IMG/VR virus record: IMGVR_UViG_3300008108_000337
Coordinates: 1 to 64,000 of that record
Length of the DNA stretch: 64,000 nucleotides
Reading direction: 5' to 3' (one strand)
From: a virus
In this document: positions 30,461 through 47,593 of the stretch, piece after piece
Layout: each line of letters begins with the position of its first letter
Numbering within the stretch: position 1 is the first letter of the stretch
The notes under the pieces: model-generated
The model's input: the letters and a program-made list of their open reading frames with translations, nothing else
Databases searched by the model: none
Told to the model about the DNA's origin: nothing
Translations under genes and position numbers: made by a program

Positions 30461-33001
30461 TTAAGCAAATTGAGTTCCAAATTTATTATCGGTACTCGTT
30501 TCAGTTTTTTTCCTTACAACACTTGTAACCTTTGCACTATCCATATATACATCTTTATTTGCTAAAAATGCTGCTTTTAATTCTCGTAATTCTGCAATGA
30601 CACCTTCCATAGAAACCATCGGAGCCCCACCTCCTCCACTCATTGAATCTGCTAATCCTGCAGGATTTTTAGTTGCTATTAAGAAGTCATCAGGATGAGT
30701 TGATACAACTTGTCCGTTTTGGACTACACCATCATTTATCGATTCACCTGATTCATTTGTTGGTGGAGCAGCTGAGCCAAGTGTACCAAATGAAACGGTA
30801 TTAAGAAGGTCTCCTGCTTTAACTAATGGTTGGATAAGATATTCATCTATAACACTTGATATGGATTGAATACCTTCTGTCAAAAACATTATAAAATCCA
30901 TAACCGGAGTTAATACAAATGCTAAACCTTCTGCTATAAATCCAATAACTTCAAATATTTTTCCCATTCCCCAAACCATAAAATCTATAAAGTAACCCAT
31001 TGGTCCAGCATCTACTTGTGCGGCAAATAAATCACCTAACTTTCGAAATATCTCCATAATAGGTTCTATTGCTTCCATTGTTTTTGATTTTAATTCTTTA
31101 AATTTATCAAACAATGGTTGTAATCTTTCTACAACTCTTTGAATAGGTGTGATTAACATTTCTAATATCGCCCCACCTATTGCATATATTGGCCCAACTA
31201 CTGCCTGAAATACATCATTCATAGCACCAAGAACACCAAAAATTATACTGAATAACGCTCCAAAAAATTTCATTATTGGTCTTACAATTACACCCATATT
31301 TTTCATTTGGTCTAACAAGTTATTCATAATAGTTGAACCAAGAGGAGCCATCATGTCCATAAATCCAGTACTCAAAGAACTAACTTCATTTTTCAATGCA
31401 TCGGTTACTGATTGCATCTCTTGTTGTTTTGCTAGTTTATCGGTCTGTGCCTTTAAATCGGCCTCGGATAATTCGGATATATCTTTACCCGCATCAGCAA
31501 GAGCTAATGCAGCTGCTAAATTTTCTTTATCTAAAACTCCAAATCGTTCTCTAATTTTTTGTTGAGTTGCTAGAGATTCGATTGTCATATTACTTGCTTC
31601 TGCAATTTTTTCTTGTTCAAAGGAATTGAGTTTTGTTACATCACCTAACTTCATCACCTCATCAACCACAGCTTGTTGAGCACCAAGTACATCTTTGGTT
31701 GCTGCTAGTTGTCTTGCTCTACCAAAATTTAAATTTTGGCCTAACATAGCAGATGCTTCTAATTCAGATGATATAGATTTTTCAAAATCTAATAAATTAT
31801 CTGCTACTTTACCTGCTTCTCCAATAGAGGTTCCTAATTTAGCTGCTTCAACTGCTGCATTTCTTAATTCTTCAGCCGAACCTCCAAAGTATTTGTAAGC
31901 ATATTCGGAATTATCCGCCATATCCTTAATAACCTTATCAGGTGAAACACCTGCCAATTTGGCCATTTCAACAGTTTGACCTATTAATGCTTGAGATTGT
32001 TCTGCAGTTAAATCTCCAATGTTTTGGAATACTTTATTTAATTTCGTTGCTTCGGTTATCGAAACTCCAAAGTTCTTGTTTAATACTAAAATAGAACCCA
32101 TTACAGCTTCAGATGGTTGTTGTAATCCATCAAATGCATTTGTAAATTCGGCTGCTGCTTTTGCTGCGTTTTCGGCACTTACACCTAAATTAGCGAAATC
32201 AACATTCGTATTACGAATGTTTTGTTGCATTCCTCTTGTTTGGGAAACTAATAAACCAGTTTCCTCTCTAAAAGCTTTTGCTGCTTGGTCAAGTTCCGAG
32301 AATCTCTTTATTGCCATAGCGATTGTTGCCACTACTGCAGCAACTACTATTAATACTGCACCAATTGCAATTGCAGTTGCAGCTGCACCAGTTGAAAGAC
32401 CACCCATTGCACCTCTTAGAGCAGTTATAACACCTTGACCTTGCCCTAAATTACTTGCAAAATTTGTAGTAAATTGTTTTGATGCAACTCCTAATTGTTG
32501 TTTAAAAACCGAAGAACCCATTTTACCAAGTTTGGATAGCATACCACCAACTAGGGGAATTTCATCGAACGTATCAACTAAACCATCAAAAGCATCACCC
32601 ATGCTACTTCCTAACTTTTGTGCAGCATCATCTACCTTTTGTATAGTGGTTAATCTTTTTAAATCTAATTGTAATCCTTCATTTGTTATTTGTAAAGCAG
32701 CTACCCTTTGTTCAACATCTTTTCTATTTGCATCAGTAATACCTCTTTGGAGATTATTTATTGCCTTATTATTTTTTATAATTTGTTTTTGAACATCTTC
32801 GGAATCTTCTAAACTTTTTACCGAACTTTGTAAATTTTGAATATATTTTTTTGTAGCACTACTTATATCATTTGTGTTATTAATTTGGTCTTCTAAATCT
32901 TGAACTATTGCACCAGCTATTGATTGAGATACTCTTAATGCCTCATTATATTCATTTTGTAATTTTAGTATTTCTCTTTGTTGCTGGGAATTGTTTAACA
33001 T
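30461..33001 (-). CDS. Tail tape measure protein
   Basis: 846 aa. Begins with long coiled coils (LKLQNEYNEALRVSQSIAGAIVQD, residues 1-140), then hydrophobic segments typical of tape measures (ATAIAIGAVLIVVAAVVATIAM, around residue 215; GALFSIIFGVLGAMNDVF, around 580), Ala-rich repeats (AAVEAAKLGTSIGEAGKVADN), and a C-terminal domain. The length sets tail length and the protein is ejected with DNA. Position between chaperones and baseplate genes is classic. Confidence 0.88.
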   Translation of the reverse strand: MLNNSQQQREILKLQNEYNEALRVSQSIAGAIVQDLEDQINNTNDISSATKKYIQNLQSSVKSLEDSEDVQKQIIKNNKAINNLQRGITDANRKDVEQRVAALQITNEGLQLDLKRLTTIQKVDDAAQKLGSSMGDAFDGLVDTFDEIPLVGGMLSKLGKMGSSVFKQQLGVASKQFTTNFASNLGQGQGVITALRGAMGGLSTGAAATAIAIGAVLIVVAAVVATIAMAIKRFSELDQAAKAFREETGLLVSQTRGMQQNIRNTNVDFANLGVSAENAAKAAAEFTNAFDGLQQPSEAVMGSILVLNKNFGVSITEATKLNKVFQNIGDLTAEQSQALIGQTVEMAKLAGVSPDKVIKDMADNSEYAYKYFGGSAEELRNAAVEAAKLGTSIGEAGKVADNLLDFEKSISSELEASAMLGQNLNFGRARQLAATKDVLGAQQAVVDEVMKLGDVTKLNSFEQEKIAEASNMTIESLATQQKIRERFGVLDKENLAAALALADAGKDISELSEADLKAQTDKLAKQQEMQSVTDALKNEVSSLSTGFMDMMAPLGSTIMNNLLDQMKNMGVIVRPIMKFFGALFSIIFGVLGAMNDVFQAVVGPIYAIGGAILEMLITPIQRVVERLQPLFDKFKELKSKTMEAIEPIMEIFRKLGDLFAAQVDAGPMGYFIDFMVWGMGKIFEVIGFIAEGLAFVLTPVMDFIMFLTEGIQSISSVIDEYLIQPLVKAGDLLNTVSFGTLGSAAPPTNESGESINDGVVQNGQVVSTHPDDFLIATKNPAGLADSMSGGGGAPMVSMEGVIAELRELKAAFLANKDVYMDSAKVTSVVRKKTETSTDNKFGTQFA

Positions 33002-33012
33002 TTTTTAAAATC

Positions 33013-33264
33013 TTATCTAATGTTTAAAATAGCTTTGTATGTATGAGGAATTCTTTCTCCGTTTTTTTGCATTCTTTCTACTTTTTTACGAAGGGTATCC
33101 ATATCATTATCCAAACTTCTAGCAAGTTTCAAAAAATCGTCATCTTTTTCTAAATTTGAAACCATTTTTTTTCCAAAAATGTAATCAACAACACCTTCTT
33201 TCATATCGTGTTTTTTCGATATAAATTCTTTTATTTTATTTTTTTTTGTTTCAGTAAGTTTCAT
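33013..33264 (-). CDS. Hypothetical protein, 83 aa, between chaperone and tape measure
   Basis: Starts MKLTETKKNKIKEFISKKHDMKEG. Basic and helical, likely coiled coil (RSLDNDMDTLRKKVERMQKNG). It has its own late-type promoter just after a terminator. Position next to the tape measure suggests a tail-assembly role; function unknown. Confidence 0.65.
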   Translation of the reverse strand: MKLTETKKNKIKEFISKKHDMKEGVVDYIFGKKMVSNLEKDDDFLKLARSLDNDMDTLRKKVERMQKNGERIPHTYKAILNIR

Positions 33265-33301: not shown

Positions 33302-33339
33302 ATAAAAAAAAATGTGAGGAGTTTTACCTTCTCACATTT
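33302..33339 (-). terminator. Rho-independent terminator after the chaperone pair
   Basis: Nine-base-pair stem AAATGTGAG / CTCACATTT with a 12-nt loop, followed on the minus strand by a run of T. The stem overlaps the last codons of the frameshift ORF. Confidence 0.8.
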
Positions 33340-33539
33340 ACATTTGGGCCACTTACAGCTGATTTAGATTTCTGAGATTGTTTTACATCTTCTTGTTCTC
33401 TTTTTTTAGTATCTATCAATTGTTTGTAGTAGAAATTTCGTATGTGTATTGGTAATCGATAAACTCCTTCTTGAGTAAATCCATTACCAAAATAACATAA
33501 TTCAAAAATTTGTTTATGAAGTATAATTGAATAATTACT
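33324..33539 (-). CDS. Tail assembly chaperone second frame (gp51/T-like), reached by frameshifting
   Basis: An open frame of 71 codons with no ATG, GTG or TTG near its beginning: SNYSIILHKQIFELCYFGNG, then FTQEGVYRLPIHIRNFYYKQLI, a Lys/Glu helix and the end PNVNVRR. I recall similar proteins (NY..I....F..C..F..GFT...VY..P...RNFY..KL) from T4-like phages, called gp51 in cyanophages. It overlaps the stop of the gp26-like gene in the +1 (equal to -2) frame, and a slippery T7 run lies 12 nt upstream of that stop. Position between tube and tape measure is that of lambda G-T-type chaperones. A fused gp26-gp51 product is inferred. Confidence 0.7.
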   Translation of the reverse strand, partial: SNYSIILHKQIFELCYFGNGFTQEGVYRLPIHIRNFYYKQLIDTKKREQEDVKQSQKSKSAVSGPNVNVRR

Positions 33540-34290
33540 CGGAAGGCCAAAAAAACCCTACGCCCATTGGAATCGAGCGTACCTCCTTTTCTCCCGTTTG
33601 GGGGTCTTCATATTCAAACTCCATTTTCACATCTGGTTGTATTTTTTTAATGTATTCTCTAAATGCTTTAGTATCTCTAGTTAAGAATTGGTTGTTGATA
33701 AAATTTGTGATAGCACCAGTATCAGTTTTACCATTTACAGAAACAATCATGTATCTATATCTAGTTGTTAATTCAGCACCTAAAGCACCTTTATTTAATC
33801 TTTGTAGTGATTTTATATCGGCATCTATCTTTTTTTCATCACCATGTGTCAATAATCTAAATTCTAATTGATTACCATTTGATGTTGTAAATTTATATTT
33901 ATTTTCTCGAGTTAATAAAGTAGTATCAACTTCTTTTACCTGAACTTTTGATAAATCAACAACTACATCTTCTTTTTCATCTAAATTGTTTGTAAGTTGA
34001 ATATTATATTCAGGTCCATATCCCAAAATACGAGTTGCTAACATAATAGCATTTTTATCACCAAGTAAAATATCATCAACATTGATTTTACTATCTACTA
34101 TAATAGATTCAAATAATTTATCTAAAACTATACCTTTTTTAATTAAATTTTGAGATGTTAAGATTTCTTCTTCTTTTGCAGTCATGTATTTAATTTCTAT
34201 TTGACCAGAAGAGAGAGGATTTGATTCAGGATAACATAATCCTTGAGATGGAAGTGAAATTACTTCGGTTGGAAAATCATAATTTGCCAT
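33535..34290 (-). CDS. gp26-like baseplate hub / tail assembly chaperone
   Basis: 251 aa. Starts MANYDFPTEVISLPSQGLCYPESN and contains GQIEIKYMTAKEEEILTSQNLI, LLGDKNAIMLATRILGYGPEYNI, LTHGDEKKIDADIKSLQ and AFREYIKKIQPDVKMEF, ending GVGFFWPSE. This order is known to me from T4-like phage gp26 proteins. By position (after the tube, before the tape measure) it also matches chaperone G of other tailed phages. The T-rich end of the gene holds the proposed frameshift site. Confidence 0.82.
   Translation of the reverse strand: MANYDFPTEVISLPSQGLCYPESNPLSSGQIEIKYMTAKEEEILTSQNLIKKGIVLDKLFESIIVDSKINVDDILLGDKNAIMLATRILGYGPEYNIQLTNNLDEKEDVVVDLSKVQVKEVDTTLLTRENKYKFTTSNGNQLEFRLLTHGDEKKIDADIKSLQRLNKGALGAELTTRYRYMIVSVNGKTDTGAITNFINNQFLTRDTKAFREYIKKIQPDVKMEFEYEDPQTGEKEVRSIPMGVGFFWPSE
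33549..33558 (-). promoter_or_regulatory. Slippery sequence GGGTTTTTTT (proposed -2/+1 frameshift site)
   Basis: Frame 0 reads GGG TTT TTT TGG CCT TCC GAG TAA; the other frame reads GGT TTT TTT GGC CTT CCG AGT AAT TAT. With seven T, tRNA-Phe can re-pair after slipping by -2 or +1, giving GVGFF(F)GLPSNYS. No downstream hairpin was clearly seen. Confidence 0.55.
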
Positions 34291-34400: not shown

Positions 34401-34892
34401 TTAGAATTCCAAGATTGCGTAATCGTAAGAAATTGTTAATTCGATTGTAGCAGGGTCGGTACCAGTTGCCCAATCCAAATCACCAAAGTTAGCTTGAGAA
34501 ATGAAAGCTCCTTTTAGAGTCCATTGTTCGATTTTATCACCCACAGGACCTAACATATAACATTGAATATCTTTTTTATACATATCAGCATATCCATTTC
34601 TACCAGTTAATGATTCGTGAGATAAACGTATCCACTCCATTACCGCTTGTGCTCCTGAAGGAACAATTGGGTCATAAAGAGTCATTGTAATATCTTGCCA
34701 CTCACCCTTGCCTTTAAGTTGTCTTTTTACGTTAATGTGATCCAGAGTAACCTTTTCAAATTGAATTGTAGGTCTTTGAGATGCTTTTATTAAATATGAA
34801 GGAATACCACCTACTTCGAAGATGAAGCGGTTCTTCATCTTCGGTTCGAAATTGGTATAGAACATATCGTTAAATTCTAATACTTCTGCCAT
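34401..34892 (-). CDS. Tail tube protein, gp19-like
   Basis: 163 aa, the T4 gp19 length. Contains NRFIFEVGGIPSYLIKASQRP, VKRQLKGKGEWQDITMTLYDPI, and the end DLDWATGTDPATIELTISYDYA, all as in T4-like tube proteins. It forms the inner rigid tube. Own late promoter, strong terminator; probably one of the most abundant products. Confidence 0.93.
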   Translation of the reverse strand: MAEVLEFNDMFYTNFEPKMKNRFIFEVGGIPSYLIKASQRPTIQFEKVTLDHINVKRQLKGKGEWQDITMTLYDPIVPSGAQAVMEWIRLSHESLTGRNGYADMYKKDIQCYMLGPVGDKIEQWTLKGAFISQANFGDLDWATGTDPATIELTISYDYAILEF

Positions 34893-34944: not shown

Positions 34945-37269
34945 TTATGAACTGAATGATGCACCAGTTGGTAAGATGTTGAAATCCAACACGATGAATT
35001 CAGCAGTTCTTGTTGGTTGTAAGAAAATCTGTCCAGCCAAGATGTTTCTATCAATTACATCAGGTGTATTGTTAGTTTCATCCATTACAACTCTGAATGC
35101 GAATAAACCTTGTCTTTGTTGGATTCCTTCCAAGTAAGGATTTACTGTATTCAAGAATCTTGAACGAGTTTGTGATGTATTTTGTTCGAATACCAAGTAT
35201 CTTGAAGTAGATGCAATGTATTTCTTAACTTTAATCAACAATCTTCTTACATTGATTCTATCCAATGCAGATGCTCTATCTTGAAGAGTTTTCTGTCCAA
35301 ATGCCACGATACCCTCTCCAGGGAATTGAGCGATTGGGTTTACTTTGTTCTCATATAGAGTATCTCTTTCAGCATGAGTTAATCTATTCAATACACTAAC
35401 TGCTCCAGTGATACCACCTCTATTCAAACCAGCTGGTGCGAACCATTCTGCTGCAATAGCATCATTGGCTGCGTAAATTCCTGGCATTAATACTGATGGT
35501 GGAACAATTGTTAATTTATTTGTTCTTGAATCGATTGTTTTAACCCAAGGGTAGTATGCACCTACATAGTTAGAATCTACATTTTGTGCTTCCAATGTTA
35601 CCAAATCAATTGAATCATCGTAATCACTCAATTCACCAATGTAGAATGCATCTTCTCTAGCTTCTACCATATCAACAATCTTATCGAATACATAAGAGTG
35701 TAATCTTCTAACAACACCAGGTGCAGCTACCAAGTTGATATCAAAATCATCAGGGTTAGATACTGCGTTAATAGCTTTTACATAAGCAATTGAACCACTT
35801 GTTGTAGGATTAGCTAAGTTAAATCCTTGTGAATTACCAGAACCCCATTCAGTATCATTATTTTTTGCCAAAGCGTGTTTTATAGTTGGAGATACTCCAT
35901 CAAATCCACCTTGGAATGCTACTGTAAATTGTCTTTTTGCAACATCAGTAGTGTTTGAACCAGTCAATAAATAATTAAATGGTGCATTATCAAATGTGAA
36001 ACTTGTATTTGAACCAGTACTAGCATTGTTTGGAATTGGTGCCAAGAAGTAGTTATTATCTACTCTTACAACTGCAGTTTCCAAATCTATACCCGAATAT
36101 CTAAATGTAGATGATGCATTGTTATCTGCAGAACCAGTTGAGAAAACAACTGCAGGTGTGATTGAATCTAATCCTCTTATTGGAGAATAATATGGTTGGT
36201 GTCCGAAAGGTCCTGCCGTAACTGGGAAAGAACCTTCTTCGGAAACTTCTACTCTAACCAATCTTGAACGATTCGTATAATCACCATTCATTGTCATTTT
36301 ACCATTCTCATCAATAGTGATGTTTTGGTCACCAATTACTTTTAAGATGTAATTTGGAGATAATGGATCTAAATTTACATTGTTGTAAGTTTCTAAAATA
36401 GATTTTCTTCTATCAGTATCAGAGTAACCTCTAATTACAATAGAGAAAGTTGCATAATCAGTTGCGTTTGATTCACCTGCTGCTTTTATATTAAAAATTG
36501 AAATTTTGTATTCAGTATTAGCATAAGTACCATCACCAATAGTATGGAAACGGAATAGTTGATGTGTTTCACCTGAAATTTCTTGTGATATAATCCAAGG
36601 AGTGGAAGCATAAGAACAATCTTGGTCTACAAAACTTTGTTCTCCTAAACTTACCAATGAAACTTCTGAACCAGATGATATATTAAATGTTGATATAGCT
36701 GCATTTTCAAAAAATTGAGATACATAAACACCCTTGGAACCTCTTGGATTTCCACCAAATACATCTGATAAATCATTTCCAGCAGTGTATAGGATAGATG
36801 CAGAGATTTCTGTGTTATATGCAGAATCAGAACCACTTAGTGTAATACTGAATGCAGAAGATGATTCTTGAGCATCAATAGAAGCAGTGATAGCATCACC
36901 GTTACCTGATGTTGTCCAGTGATGAGTTGATTTTAGAACACCAACTAATTTTTCTCCGTTTGAACCTGATACTTTAATACCAACAGTTCCTCGTTGAGTA
37001 TATCCACCGATATGACCAACACGAACAATAGTTACTGTTCCAGCTTCTCTTAAATAATTTTGAACCGCGTAACCAGTATAGTATGAACCATCTGGTGTAC
37101 CGAAAATTGATTCAAATTCTGATTGGGTGTTTACTACGGTTGGAACGAAAGCAGGTCCTTTAGCAAAAGGTCCAATTATTGCTGCTCCGATTTCACCAAT
37201 ACCTTGAGATAAAAATGATTGGTCATTTTCTCTTGTAAATACACCAGGTGATACAATCTTTTCTGCCAT
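34945..37269 (-). CDS. Tail sheath protein, gp18-like
   Basis: 774 aa. Starts MAEKIVSPGVFTRENDQSFLSQG and has GAAIIGPFAKGPAFVPT, a typical sheath N-terminus, and ends with the conserved C-terminal domain (GIVAFGQKTLQDRASALDRINVRRLLIKVKKYIA, DRNILAGQIFLQPTRTAEFIVLDFN). A large variable middle (residues ~130-480) faces outwards. It contracts to drive the tube into the host. Directly upstream of the tube gene, as in T4. Confidence 0.93.
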   Translation of the reverse strand: MAEKIVSPGVFTRENDQSFLSQGIGEIGAAIIGPFAKGPAFVPTVVNTQSEFESIFGTPDGSYYTGYAVQNYLREAGTVTIVRVGHIGGYTQRGTVGIKVSGSNGEKLVGVLKSTHHWTTSGNGDAITASIDAQESSSAFSITLSGSDSAYNTEISASILYTAGNDLSDVFGGNPRGSKGVYVSQFFENAAISTFNISSGSEVSLVSLGEQSFVDQDCSYASTPWIISQEISGETHQLFRFHTIGDGTYANTEYKISIFNIKAAGESNATDYATFSIVIRGYSDTDRRKSILETYNNVNLDPLSPNYILKVIGDQNITIDENGKMTMNGDYTNRSRLVRVEVSEEGSFPVTAGPFGHQPYYSPIRGLDSITPAVVFSTGSADNNASSTFRYSGIDLETAVVRVDNNYFLAPIPNNASTGSNTSFTFDNAPFNYLLTGSNTTDVAKRQFTVAFQGGFDGVSPTIKHALAKNNDTEWGSGNSQGFNLANPTTSGSIAYVKAINAVSNPDDFDINLVAAPGVVRRLHSYVFDKIVDMVEAREDAFYIGELSDYDDSIDLVTLEAQNVDSNYVGAYYPWVKTIDSRTNKLTIVPPSVLMPGIYAANDAIAAEWFAPAGLNRGGITGAVSVLNRLTHAERDTLYENKVNPIAQFPGEGIVAFGQKTLQDRASALDRINVRRLLIKVKKYIASTSRYLVFEQNTSQTRSRFLNTVNPYLEGIQQRQGLFAFRVVMDETNNTPDVIDRNILAGQIFLQPTRTAEFIVLDFNILPTGASFSS

Positions 37270-37709: not shown

Positions 37710-38975
37710 TTAAGATGGAGTATCAATTTGAATAGTAGCAGACCATGCTCCTTTTAATCCTTGATCAATTGCCCTAACTCTGAAAAAACGAGTTCCTCCA
37801 AAAAGGCTAAGTACCTCTACAATATTTGTACTCCATTCATCTGCACTATGTGTAATAGTAGTAAATGTGTTAGTTGTAGCTAATTGCCACTCATAAGCAG
37901 TAATACCAGTAGTTCCAGTCGATGCAGGAGCAGTCCAAGTTACATTTGGTTGGGTGTATGAAACACTAGTCGGAGCACCAGGTGCAGGTAAATCAGTATG
38001 TGTATTACCACCTTTGTTGTGAGTAATATATCCATTTACCATATAGGTATCTTCTGATTCCACATCAATTGAGACAATTTCGGTTGTTTTTTCAACGATT
38101 TCTATTAAAGTAATATCAACTTCAGTTCCATCTCCTTTAACCAACTTATCACCTACCACTAAATTAAACATTTCTTTGAATAGATAATCACCACTTACTG
38201 AATCTTTTACCAACATTGGGTGTTCTGAAGTAGCAGTTACTTCTCCATTATTAATATCATAATAACGAGATGCAAAAGAATAAGTTAAATTAACAATAGT
38301 TACATCTTTTGGGGTAGTAGAAAGCGAATTAGTGGACCAATCCAAGAAAGTTCCATCTGAATCTTCACTTAAACCACCGATTGAGAACCCTTTTAGTAAA
38401 TCACCTTCATTTAAATCACCTGCTTCTACGATTGTTCCATCTGCAAGGGTTACTGGTGAATCGATAGTTAAACATAAAGCAGTTGAGTTTCCATCATATG
38501 AATCCACCGAATAAACGGTCTTTGTTCTTGCAGTGTTATATCTAACTGCGTGTTGATTGAATCCATCTGCGAAAGTTGCAGAAACTGTATGTAATAATAC
38601 TGGTTGTAAAACAGTTTGGGTAGGTGCATTTGTCATATTACCTACTGCTATAGTAGCAGAAACACCATTATTTGCAGAAACTGATAATTTATCACCACCG
38701 GTGATACCCCAAGTAACATTTGAACCTCTACCACTTATTTGAGAAAATCTACTACCCCCTCCAGTAGTTCCTAATGTATATGTCTCGGAGGTGTTTTCTA
38801 CTGCATAGGTAAATCCCGATACGTCATCTATTGAATCTACAGCGTAGAACGAAAGACCGGTTGTAACTGCAGAACCACGAATATTACCAAGTGAAACATT
38901 GGAATTTTGTGTAAATCCAGTTGCTCCTGCTAAATTATTGAGTGATAGAGTATCTCCTGAAGTAAGTGTTGGCAT
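37710..38975 (-). CDS. Tail protein with internal Hint (intein-like) domain and FnIII end
   Basis: 421 aa in three parts. Residues 1-165: beta-rich structural domain. Residues 168-320: Hint domain starting Cys168-Leu-Thr with DSPVTLADGTIVEAGDL, block B TSEHP (T249-H252), then VSIDVESEDTYMVNGYITHN ending His319-Asn320. The next residue is Lys321, not the Cys/Ser/Thr required for splicing. Residues ~330-421: a fibronectin type III domain (APTSVSYTQPNVTWTAPAS, YEWQLATT, FFRVRAID). Known Hint chemistry would allow Asn cyclisation and cleavage after 320 and thioester chemistry at Cys168. Probably a surface-exposed decoration or adhesin that matures by self-cleavage. No homing endonuclease is inserted. 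Confidence 0.8.
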   Translation of the reverse strand: MPTLTSGDTLSLNNLAGATGFTQNSNVSLGNIRGSAVTTGLSFYAVDSIDDVSGFTYAVENTSETYTLGTTGGGSRFSQISGRGSNVTWGITGGDKLSVSANNGVSATIAVGNMTNAPTQTVLQPVLLHTVSATFADGFNQHAVRYNTARTKTVYSVDSYDGNSTALCLTIDSPVTLADGTIVEAGDLNEGDLLKGFSIGGLSEDSDGTFLDWSTNSLSTTPKDVTIVNLTYSFASRYYDINNGEVTATSEHPMLVKDSVSGDYLFKEMFNLVVGDKLVKGDGTEVDITLIEIVEKTTEIVSIDVESEDTYMVNGYITHNKGGNTHTDLPAPGAPTSVSYTQPNVTWTAPASTGTTGITAYEWQLATTNTFTTITHSADEWSTNIVEVLSLFGGTRFFRVRAIDQGLKGAWSATIQIDTPS

Positions 38976-42746: not shown

Positions 42747-45119
42747 TTATCCTAATTTTGATTTTAATTCATCAATTTGTTTTTGTTGTTCTTTTATCGC
42801 CTCGATTAATAAACCAGTAAGTTTGGCATAATCTACACCCTTAAATCCATTCTCTCTATCGTGAACTAATTGTGGAAGAACTTTCTCTACATCTTGAGCA
42901 ATTACACCAACATTTGGTAACGATTGTTGTAATTCATCTGCATTTTCATTCCATTCCCAAGTTACACCTTTTAATTGTTGTACCTTTTGGATTGGATTTG
43001 AAATTACTTCTATATTATCTTTTAATCGTTCATCTGATGAAGCGTATGCAACAACATCACCACCCACATTCAAGGCTCCACTTACACCTACACCACCTGT
43101 TACTATAAGAGCACCAGTGGTTATTGTAGTTGATGCAGTGTTGTTTGTAATATTAACGGCAGAGGAGAATGTTTTAGCTCCACTAAATGTTTGAGTATCG
43201 GATAAGTGAGCAGTATCAGCATCTAAATATGCAGAAGCGATAACTGAACCTTGCCAAGTACCAGTTCCAATTGTACCTAAAGTTGTAATTGAAGTCTGTC
43301 CAACATAAGTTGAAGCAATATCAACTGCATCAGCAGATACAGAAATTCTATTTGCAGTACCAACAACATTGAGGTCTCTTGTTGCAGCAATTGTACCACC
43401 ACCAGTTAAACCATTTCCAGCAGTAATTGATACGGTAGTATGATCAATGTGTTGGTTTGCAACATAGTTTGTTGTTGTATTGTGATTTACTTGAGATGAA
43501 CCTGATATAACACCACCTCCCACAGAAATTGTGTGAGCTATACCTTCACCTGAAGTTGCACCACTTGAAACAATACCATTTCCTGCAGTAATTGTTGCTA
43601 CATAATTACCCGAAGTTCTAGTTCCCAATTCTATATCACCAGTTGTAGAAGCAACATTGATTTGTCCTGAACCTGAAACAGTACCACTTGGTAAAATTGC
43701 AGTTACACTACCAGCAGTCACAGTACCAATTGTAGTGATTGAATCATCACCACTATATGTACCACCTGCAACTGTAGCAAGTGTTGCATTATATGCCTGA
43801 ACATCAGTTCCAATTGCTACTCCCAAATTGGTTCTAGCAGTAGAAGTATTTGTTAAATCGGATAAGTTAGATGATTTTGATAATTTACCATCCACTAAGG
43901 TATTCAATGTAGAATCACCTGCTGCCAACGAAGCAGAAATTTCAATTAAAGTATCAAATGCTGCATTAGCTCCACCAATTAAATCGGTTAATTCTTGTTG
44001 AACATATGCAGTTGTAGCGATTTGAGTTGAGTTTGTATTCGCAACGGCAGTTGGTGCAGTTGGTGTTCCAGTAAGAGCTGCACTGGTAAACATTGTGGCC
44101 TTACTTTCATTTGTTACATTTCCTAAACCAACATGAGTTGCAGTTACACCACTTACTGTTCCAGTAAAGGTAGGTGAACTAAACATCGTTGCCTTACTTT
44201 CATTAGTTACATTATCTAATGATAAAAAAGTTTTAACTGAAGAAGCAGAACCACTAACTACTGCTAATGAATTATTGTAAGCAAGTACATTTGCATCAAA
44301 ATTAGTTATTGTATCAGCATTTACTTGAGATGAACCAGAAATGACTGTGTTAGCATCAAGTTGTCCTTTGATGGTTGTGTTAATTGAACCAGTAAATGCT
44401 TCTAAATTAGCAGTTTCTCCTTCAAGGGCAGTTAATCGGGTAATTGCACTACCACTGGCAGTTTCTAATGAAGTTAATCTATTGTTTTGAGTAGTATTAG
44501 TTGTATCGTTAGAACCAGTGTAAGTATTAAGAGATGATAAAATACTTATAACTTGTGATGAACCAGATACGATTCCTGCAGGAATAGAAGAAAGTGATGT
44601 ATAAACAACTTGTGATGATCCCGAAACTACCCCATCACCAAGTGTATTTAAGTATCGTGTATCGAAAGAAGATGTTAATTGAGATGAACCCGAAACTACA
44701 CCACCACCTGCAGAAATTGTATGAGTTATACCTTCACCTGAAGTTGCCCCTGATGTAAGAATACCATTTCCTGCGGTGATTGTTGCAACATAATTACCTG
44801 AAGTTCTTGTTCCTAATGCAATATCACCAGTAGTTGATGCTACGTTGATTTGAGCAGAACTCGATACAACGGTATTAGTGTCTAATTGAGTTTTAACGGC
44901 TGTTGCAAATCCAGTAGTTGAACCTGCAGTAATTTGTGATGAACCCGAAACTACACCATTTGTAGAATTTATTATACCACTAAAAGTACCACCAGTAAAT
45001 GATGCTCCTTGATATGATCCACTAAATGACCCACTATATATACCACCCGGTGGTAATGTGAATGTTGCACCATCTGCAAATGTTAATGAACCTGAAATTA
45101 CGGGACTATGTATTATCAT
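42747..45119 (-). CDS. Tail fibre with C-terminal S74 intramolecular chaperone, 790 aa
   Basis: The first 130 residues carry TFTLPPGGIYSGSFSGSYQG and beta-strand repeats; then SGSSQ cassettes and the RLTSLETASG heptads nearly identical to those of the 845-aa fibre; TNESKATMF repeats twice in the middle. The last ~105 residues, SSDERLKDNIEVISNPIQKV to VGVIAQDVEKVLPQLV and a coiled coil KEQQKQIDELKSKLG, form a Peptidase_S74 domain. S74 domains fold trimeric beta-helices and then cut themselves off at the conserved Ser-Asp. The mature fibre would thus end before ASSDERLK. Confidence 0.82.
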   Translation of the reverse strand: MIIHSPVISGSLTFADGATFTLPPGGIYSGSFSGSYQGASFTGGTFSGIINSTNGVVSGSSQITAGSTTGFATAVKTQLDTNTVVSSSAQINVASTTGDIALGTRTSGNYVATITAGNGILTSGATSGEGITHTISAGGGVVSGSSQLTSSFDTRYLNTLGDGVVSGSSQVVYTSLSSIPAGIVSGSSQVISILSSLNTYTGSNDTTNTTQNNRLTSLETASGSAITRLTALEGETANLEAFTGSINTTIKGQLDANTVISGSSQVNADTITNFDANVLAYNNSLAVVSGSASSVKTFLSLDNVTNESKATMFSSPTFTGTVSGVTATHVGLGNVTNESKATMFTSAALTGTPTAPTAVANTNSTQIATTAYVQQELTDLIGGANAAFDTLIEISASLAAGDSTLNTLVDGKLSKSSNLSDLTNTSTARTNLGVAIGTDVQAYNATLATVAGGTYSGDDSITTIGTVTAGSVTAILPSGTVSGSGQINVASTTGDIELGTRTSGNYVATITAGNGIVSSGATSGEGIAHTISVGGGVISGSSQVNHNTTTNYVANQHIDHTTVSITAGNGLTGGGTIAATRDLNVVGTANRISVSADAVDIASTYVGQTSITTLGTIGTGTWQGSVIASAYLDADTAHLSDTQTFSGAKTFSSAVNITNNTASTTITTGALIVTGGVGVSGALNVGGDVVAYASSDERLKDNIEVISNPIQKVQQLKGVTWEWNENADELQQSLPNVGVIAQDVEKVLPQLVHDRENGFKGVDYAKLTGLLIEAIKEQQKQIDELKSKLG

Positions 45120-45808: not shown

Positions 45809-47593
45809 TTATTGGTTATTTACTTTTTCTTTTAATTCTTCAACTTGTTTTGATAAATCTTTAATACCTTCAATTAATAAGGAAACTAATTTATCATATT
45901 TTACGGCTTTGAATCCATTTTCACGAGTACCAACTAATTCAGGAAGTATTTCTTCAATTTCTTGAGCAATTACACCATAATCCTTACCTTTATAAATATT
46001 TTGTTTTTCTTCGTTCCAAGTAAATGAATAACCACCTATTTGATTAATTTTTTGCAAAGGTTCTGAAATTGGAGTGATTTCGTTTTTCAATCTTCTATCG
46101 GATGATGCATAAGCAACAACATCACCACCGGCGAATACATCACCACTCGTTCCAATACCACCTGTTACTATTAATGCTCCAGTTGTTTTTGAAGTTGAAG
46201 CAGTGTTATTTGTAATTGATATAGAAGTTGAAGTAGTATTACCTACTGAAGTTACATCTTGTAATGATTTTGTAATTTGAGATGAACCCGAAACTACTGC
46301 ATCTGCGTTTAACTTATCTTTTACATTCGTATCAAAGTTAGTGATTGAATCTGCATTAACTTGTGAAGAACCTGAAATTACACCATCTGCGTTTAATTTA
46401 TCTTTTACATTTGAATCAAAGTTAGTGATTGAATCTGCATTAACTTGTGAAGAACCCGATACTACACCACTTGGTAATAAAGGAGTTATTTGAGATGAAC
46501 CAGATACGATTCCTGCAGGGATATTAGATAAGCCAACATAAGAAACTTGTGATGAGCCCGATACTACTCCACTTGGTAGTAAGGGAGTTACTTGAGATGA
46601 ACCTGATACGATTCCGGCAGGGATATTTGATAAATTAGGATACGAAATTTGTGATGAACCTGATACTAATGTAGTTCCAGTTGCATAGAATGTTCCATTT
46701 ACAACCGAATTAGAACCAAGTGTTATTAAAGTTCCGGTATCGGTAATATTAGAATCATTTAAGTGATGATTATCAACTGCTTTTGGAACTCTGTTCGAAG
46801 TTAAATAAGTTGGGGTTCCTTTTGTTGTATATTCAGGGCCAAATATAGTAACCGCATAATCTATGCCGGCTGAACCACTATATTCATATCCCCAATCATT
46901 AGTTTCGCCATCATAGTAGAATGAAGCAGTTGAAAGAGTAGAACCTGAATCATATACTGATAAACCAGCATATCGTGAGGTTGGAGTATCGGTGTTTACA
47001 ACAATAAATGCATCACCGATAATTTTTGCAGCACCACTAACCGAAGTTATGTAAGCAAATGAACCAGTTCCATTAACAACTATATCGTTAAATGTTTTTG
47101 TGCCACTTATAGTTTGATCACCATCTAATGTAACATACCTATTATCGTAAGATGATGTTAATTGTGATGAACCTGAAACTAAAGTATGTGTTCCACTTGC
47201 TTTTTCTTCAAATAAATTATTTAATGAAGATGAGTTTGATTCTAATAAATCTAATCTATCATCTACCGATGAACTAAACTCCGTAAAGTCAGTTTCATTT
47301 ACATATCTTGAATCATAAGATGATGTTAATTGAGATGAACCCGAAACTACACCTGATGGTAGGTTTGAACTAACACTTCCTATTTGTAATTGAGTCCAAC
47401 CATTTGAATTTCCAACATTTGAAGTATCGGTTAACACCCATATCGTATTATTATCTTGTTGAAAAACTATTAATCCTTCATAAACATTAGCAGATGATAG
47501 AGAATATCTAGCATTCTCATCCACTAATGTTAATCTAGCATCAACAGGTTCGTTGTTCGTTATGTTAAACCCACCAGGTAATATAATTGCCAT
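45809..47593 (-). CDS. Tail fibre with C-terminal S74 chaperone, 594 aa
   Basis: Starts MAIILPGGFNITNNEPVDARLTL; then EGLIVFQQDNNTIWVLTD, SGSSQLTSSYDSRYV cassettes, a folded domain around residues 190-280 (YAGLSVYDSG, WGYEYSGSAGIDYAVTIFG), and five near-identical SGSSQ(V/I) cassettes. The end is SSDRRLKNEITPISEPLQKIN to YGVIAQEIEEILPELV plus a coiled coil, a second S74 chaperone. Self-cleavage would release the chaperone. Confidence 0.82.
   Translation of the reverse strand: MAIILPGGFNITNNEPVDARLTLVDENARYSLSSANVYEGLIVFQQDNNTIWVLTDTSNVGNSNGWTQLQIGSVSSNLPSGVVSGSSQLTSSYDSRYVNETDFTEFSSSVDDRLDLLESNSSSLNNLFEEKASGTHTLVSGSSQLTSSYDNRYVTLDGDQTISGTKTFNDIVVNGTGSFAYITSVSGAAKIIGDAFIVVNTDTPTSRYAGLSVYDSGSTLSTASFYYDGETNDWGYEYSGSAGIDYAVTIFGPEYTTKGTPTYLTSNRVPKAVDNHHLNDSNITDTGTLITLGSNSVVNGTFYATGTTLVSGSSQISYPNLSNIPAGIVSGSSQVTPLLPSGVVSGSSQVSYVGLSNIPAGIVSGSSQITPLLPSGVVSGSSQVNADSITNFDSNVKDKLNADGVISGSSQVNADSITNFDTNVKDKLNADAVVSGSSQITKSLQDVTSVGNTTSTSISITNNTASTSKTTGALIVTGGIGTSGDVFAGGDVVAYASSDRRLKNEITPISEPLQKINQIGGYSFTWNEEKQNIYKGKDYGVIAQEIEEILPELVGTRENGFKAVKYDKLVSLLIEGIKDLSKQVEELKEKVNNQ

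Follow-up and report, generated by a model that had tools for sequence, protein, structure and literature searches.

Tail assembly chaperone genes in a lineage of T4-like phages probably use +1 programmed frameshifting on a conserved UUU_Y site

The tail assembly chaperone locus of this T4-like phage most probably uses +1 programmed frameshifting on a UUU_Y site, giving a long form of the chaperone (TAC-NC) as a minor product next to the short form (TAC-N), and we place the probability of this reading at roughly 0.9. The window, i.e. the whole stretch of 64,000 nucleotides that was analysed, belongs to a 68-kb virus record. Sequence conservation, frame, site, selection, homology and gene order were all observed directly, and the programmed frameshifting proposed in a preliminary description of this DNA gains support from the conserved TTT_Y, the +1 position of the second frame, purifying selection and natural losses of the site.

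The gp26-like gene encoding TAC-N (251 aa) lies on the minus strand at 34290..33535, with its stop codon at 33537..33535, and ends in ATG GGC GTA GGG TTT TTT TGG CCT TCC GAG TAA. Its product matches phrog_150 ('baseplate hub', E 1.3e-9). Close to the end of the gene stands a slippery run of seven T (33549..33555, minus strand), read in frame 0 as TTT TTT T(GG). The second frame, TAC-C (33324..33557, minus strand), overlaps the 3' end of the gene at an offset of +1, reads GGT TTT TTT GGC CTT CCG AGT and spans 77 open codons stop to stop, about 74 of which lie beyond the slip point; the preliminary description had recognised this frame but given it 71 codons. No ATG, GTG or TTG precedes its conserved core in this phage, and the frame would be used from the GGC at 33548 to the stop at 33326..33324. 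A start-less frame overlapping the stop of the gp26-like gene beside a run of seven T is thus confirmed from the sequence. The predicted +1 fusion, TAC-NC, would comprise 321 aa (33327..34290, minus strand), with SIPMGVGFF followed by GLPSNYSIILHK at the junction. For the window alone, the chance of 77 open codons at this base composition is about 8e-4, and given conservation in more than 150 relatives the odds of a chance origin are negligible.

Comparison with related phages showed that the same or a functionally equivalent run recurs throughout. A first set was built from 80 loci that encode relatives of the short protein, at 100% to 48% identity, to which the window and six public phage records were added; 85 of these loci were readable across the gene end and two were incomplete. 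In each of the 85, the second ORF is in the +1 frame and a TTT in frame, with T or C as the next base, occupies the same place, the site being TTTTTTTGG in 57 loci, TTTTTTTAC in 19 and a variant in the remainder. Three more scans gave a second set of 102 loci scoring +1, or 100 once two losses of the site (L242 and L243) were set apart; one further locus (L234), with a stop within the body of TAC-N that is probably an error, was left out. After removal of identical sequences from both sets, all 159 distinct loci with the overlapping arrangement had TTT_Y and the second frame in +1, that is, an in-frame UUU followed by a pyrimidine, on which +1 re-pairing enters the downstream frame. This rule was drawn from the alignments ahead of the statement in the literature that UUU_Y is especially prone to +1 shifts in bacteria (Atkins et al., PMC5009743). 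The lineage includes phages of Flavobacterium, Microcystis, Bacillus, Listeria and Streptococcus, and the earlier suggestion that the second frame is reached by slippage in this phage only was not borne out, the arrangement running through a large lineage.

The preliminary description had left the slip as -2 or +1, and only the +1 part stands. A ribosome slipping back two bases, as known for Mu (PMC5009743), would insert one extra Phe (GFFFGLPS as against GFFGLPS), so that the predicted junction peptides are GVGFFGLPSNYS under a +1 slip and GVGFFFGLPSNYS under a -2 slip. While TTTTTTT on its own permits both movements, the variants found in relatives do not. One locus (L048) and a clade (L191-L205) carry TTC TTT T and another locus (L085) carries TTC TTT C, where a -2 slip would place tRNA-Phe on UCU and a +1 slip places it on UUU or UUC, and two loci with TTT CTA T (L064 and L086) fit only a +1 slip on UUU_C. 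A Mu-like -2 shift, which we regard as very unlikely, is excluded by these variants, because at TTC TTT T and TTT CTA T tRNA-Phe can re-pair only by +1.

Alternatively, RNA polymerase could slip on the T run and yield mRNAs with six or nine U's, from which normal ribosomes would read the fusion. The seven-T homopolymer conserved in most relatives would suit such a process, but in many relatives the run is interrupted (TTCTTTT, TTTCTTT, TTTCTAT, TTCTTTC) and the frame offset is unchanged, and seven T's are short for polymerase slippage in bacteria. Owing to the interrupted runs we consider this explanation very unlikely. Homopolymers are also prone to error, and a mistake of sequencing or assembly, or a decayed gene, could lie behind the two offset frames. 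However, the same offset is found in the 159 distinct loci and in the isolate genomes NC_055915 (L081), PP395634 (L082), KT624200 (L083), OQ999172 (L084) and PQ819873 (L085), and the second frame has an NG86 dN/dS of 0.02-0.32 (15 pairs). As relatives share the frame offset, error or decay is excluded as a general explanation and for this locus is scarcely conceivable.

Further support for +1 programmed frameshifting comes from the pattern of substitution. Divergence in the +1 frame at codon positions 1, 2 and 3 is 0.23, 0.15 and 0.42 and, in line with the dN/dS values, purifying selection on the second frame is strong. Third-position information across 137 distinct sequences rises from 0.15-0.41 bits before the site to 1.65, 1.89, 1.31 and 1.68 within it, and the slip site is, judging from this conservation, itself under selection. 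A T directly before TTT TTT, which would make a canonical -1 heptamer, occurs in 1 of 131 distinct loci, although codons ending in T dominate these genes. In loci whose two codons differ from TTT TTY and cannot slip back, T occurs at the same position in 9 of 29 (Fisher p 6e-7 against 1/131). By codon usage, the absence of a T-ending codon at this place in 32 representatives has P ~1e-11. Both p-values are too small in strict terms because the sequences share descent; with 12 representatives below 60% identity the codon-usage estimate is ~1e-4.

As a final alternative, TAC-C could be made as a protein of its own, with ribosomes re-initiating at the TAC-N stop or using a non-standard start codon. 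In three lineages (L201, L206 and L242) an ATG does lie at or beyond the stop. In cyanophages (L110-L189) the second ORF lies in the -1 frame behind a T_TTT_TTC heptamer in 77/77 readable loci, and an ATG is found 5 nt past the start of the TAC-N stop codon, likewise in 77/77; with both the T run and the ATG in place, a fusion and a free extension could each be made there. The lineage of the window, by contrast, lacks a start codon: in 34 of the 85 first-set loci the stretch upstream of the conserved core contains no ATG, GTG or TTG at all, no start column is conserved across the set, and start-like codons elsewhere vary in position. A conserved ATG at the same spot in relatives, which would have spoken against the proposed frameshift, was not found within the lineage. 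In addition, conservation of the overlap extends to every codon position, and an independent start is present in exactly the loci that lack the slip site. TTT_Y is gone in L201 (TTC TTG TAT) and L206 (TTC CTT TGG), where the extension is in the -1 register and has an ATG of its own immediately beyond the stop (L201:2205-2560 and L206:2205-2511). In L242 and L243 the site has become TTC TTC TGG, and the extension, again with its own ATG, lies downstream of an inserted GIY-YIG homing endonuclease gene (L242:2203-2886; Pfam PF01541, E 1e-5) that separates it from the short gene. As loss of the site goes together with an independent ATG in all of these cases, the slip site is retained where it is required and lost elsewhere, and separate translation of TAC-C is extremely unlikely for the lineage of the window.

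Based on these observations we infer the ribosomal slip event, its efficiency and the assembly roles of both forms as follows. Most ribosomes would stay in frame 0 and produce TAC-N, while a minority would pause with peptidyl-tRNA-Phe on UUU and the next codon, UGG (UAC in relatives), waiting. The tRNA-Phe would then move forward by one base to pair with UUU or UUC, after which translation would go on in the +1 frame to give TAC-NC, a product extended by an added domain of some 74 residues. By analogy with lambda gpG and gpGT, TAC-N would coat the tape measure protein and the added domain of TAC-NC would be expected to recruit tail tube subunits, this division of labour being taken from lambda (PMC5009743). 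RNA structure downstream of the site did not exceed that of shuffled sequences (ten stretches, eight loci), Rfam gave no match, and no known stimulator was found. Absence of a known stimulator is usual for +1 shifts. A Shine-Dalgarno-like AGGG stands before the site in the window and in some of the relatives, but AAC or AGC takes its place in many others, which led us to discard it as a general stimulator.

Homology connects both forms to the proteins of other T4-like phages. The TAC-N profile matches that of the group with the second frame in -1 (pairwise E 7e-24), and the +1 fusion aligns with the -1 fusions of other T4-likes over 276 columns (hhalign E 2e-27). The -1 fusion in turn matches T4 gp51 (E 1.7e-17, 238 columns) and gp51 matches gp26 (E 4e-16), each of these being a single pairwise comparison, as is the direct match of the +1 fusion to T4 gp51, which is weak (E 0.017), so that the link between the two goes through the -1 group. 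The TAC-C domains alone also align, +1 against -1 with hhalign E 1.6e-8 over 46 columns and -1 against T4 with E 7e-6. The second frame had been described as gp51-like; the link of the locus to gp26 and gp51 stands, whereas the frame does not correspond to a whole gp51, since T4 gp51 is the full short-plus-extension protein. Pfam returned nothing for TAC-N or TAC-C.

TAC-N and TAC-C were folded with AlphaFold2 as separate halves. The model of the short protein is confident (pLDDT 88) and matches 'baseplate hub' or 'hub assembly' proteins of T4-like phages in BFVD (best E 1e-20; Bacillus SP-15 3e-17); a search of the PDB gave no match, and no solved structure there resembles TAC-N. For TAC-C alone three helices were predicted (pLDDT 80), with no significant structural match for the model. 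Its top two weak fold matches, from Leptospira phage LE4 and Myoviridae sp. ctgXL3, also occur in the list for TAC-N, which is suggestive only.

The neighbouring genes, all on the minus strand, fit a chaperone locus between the tail tube and tape measure genes, as had been proposed. Upstream lie a gp19-like tail tube protein (34401..34892; PF06841 E 3e-8, phrog_4542 E 7e-29) and, beyond it, a gp18-like tail sheath (34945..37269; phrog_23 E 5e-72, PF04984). Downstream, a protein of 846 aa (30461..33001) is probably the tape measure; it has a weak match to phrog_4211 tape measure (E 0.004), and its counterpart in Flavobacterium phage immuto (NC_055915) is annotated as tail tape measure. Between this gene and the chaperone lies a small coiled-coil-like ORF of 83 aa (33013..33264) with no significant family match. 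From homology and gene order, the locus is best read as encoding two forms of a tail assembly chaperone, a putative equivalent of lambda G/G-T, and the analogy drawn in the preliminary description is supported by both and by the overlapping frames.

Two other features of the window were recorded. Upstream of the sheath gene, a predicted protein of 421 aa (37710..38975, minus strand) contains a HINT/intein-like domain and ends in VNGYITHNKG; the PT-HINT match has E 4e-5, below the curated cutoff. Two tail fibre-like proteins (42747..45119 and 45809..47593, minus strand) have C-terminal matches to the same families, phrog_8215 and phrog_5668, perhaps reflecting a duplicated module.

The five isolate genomes named above are public records of the +1 lineage, and in these the extension is either missed or annotated as small hypothetical genes; the frameshifted product is annotated in none of them. 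Since every public record of the lineage that was examined misses or splits the long form, annotation tools that search for -1 heptamers will overlook the long chaperone.

In addition to the 77 cyanophage loci, ten more T4-like records place the second ORF in the -1 frame (P-SSM5, Atu_ph07, PA5oct, RAS14, Rhizobium LG08, RL38J1, Vibrio VmeM-32, Cronobacter S13, Cygsa01 and LR756511), Cygsa01 without a T run. On a tree of the short protein the direction labels cluster strongly, with 3 changes as against a shuffled mean of 22.7; no ancestral direction is claimed, as the tree has long branches and an uncertain root. We lean towards the view that a large T4-like lineage, including phages of Bacteroidota and Firmicutes, switched from -1 to +1 or the reverse through a change in the phase of the T run, accompanied by selection against the T that would make a -1 heptamer, while other lineages turned to an ATG, an inserted gene or, in T4, separate genes. 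If this switch is real, the family is a natural series for the evolution of recoding direction. Homologous pairs use -1, +1, separate starts or separate genes, so that the direction of slippage is free to change in evolution as long as both forms are still made. The lineage also represents a well-supported +1 family in bacterial viruses, with a shared UUU_Y rule, no obvious stimulatory structure, and variants and losses that act as controls.

In T4 itself, genes 26 (208 aa) and 51 (249 aa) are separate and run in opposite directions. The T4 pair meant by Vladimirov, Gautam and Davidson in 2022 is reportedly 26 and 51 and, together with the homology found here, this makes them probably the T4 chaperone pair. 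In GenBank, gp26 and gp51 of Acinetobacter phage Stupor are named 'tape measure protein assembly chaperone'. As relayed by citing papers, the 2022 study reports that some T4-likes have separate short and long genes in place of frameshifting (PMC10885494) and that poly-T sequences are -1 signals in T4-like TAC-N genes (PMC12846349). From these papers and the Stupor names, it was already known which proteins are the chaperones and that frameshifting is used; the earlier proposal of gp26 and gp51 as the pair thus holds as an identification and, so far as the 2022 study is relayed there, not as a new one. What looks new, unless the full 2022 paper already contains it, is the +1 direction, its breadth, the match between T-run phase and direction in each group, and the natural losses.

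Compared with known systems, the locus shares with the T4-like TAC-N/TAC-NC pairs, as these citing papers portray them, the protein family, a T-rich site near the 3' end of TAC-N and the place between tube and tape measure, and differs in that their poly-T sites are described as -1; here TAC-C is in +1 at TTT_Y, not in -1 after a heptamer of the T_TTT_TTC type. T4 gp26 is homologous to TAC-N and gp51 to the whole fusion of the -1 group, C-terminal part included, although in T4 the two forms come from separate, oppositely oriented genes and no frameshift. Lambda G/G-T has the same overlapping frames and the same short and extended chaperones between the major tail protein and tape measure genes, with a -1 shift on another slippery heptamer, and this likeness is one of arrangement, not drawn from sequence. 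The Mu tail gene also slips into the +1 frame, but by -2, a re-pairing that TTCTTTT, TTCTTTC and TTTCTAT do not allow. The archaeal virus HSTV-2, whose tail chaperone shift is 'very likely +1' (PMC5009743), resembles the lineage in direction. YopN-TyeA, although unrelated to tails, shares both the UUU_Y tetranucleotide and the +1 direction.
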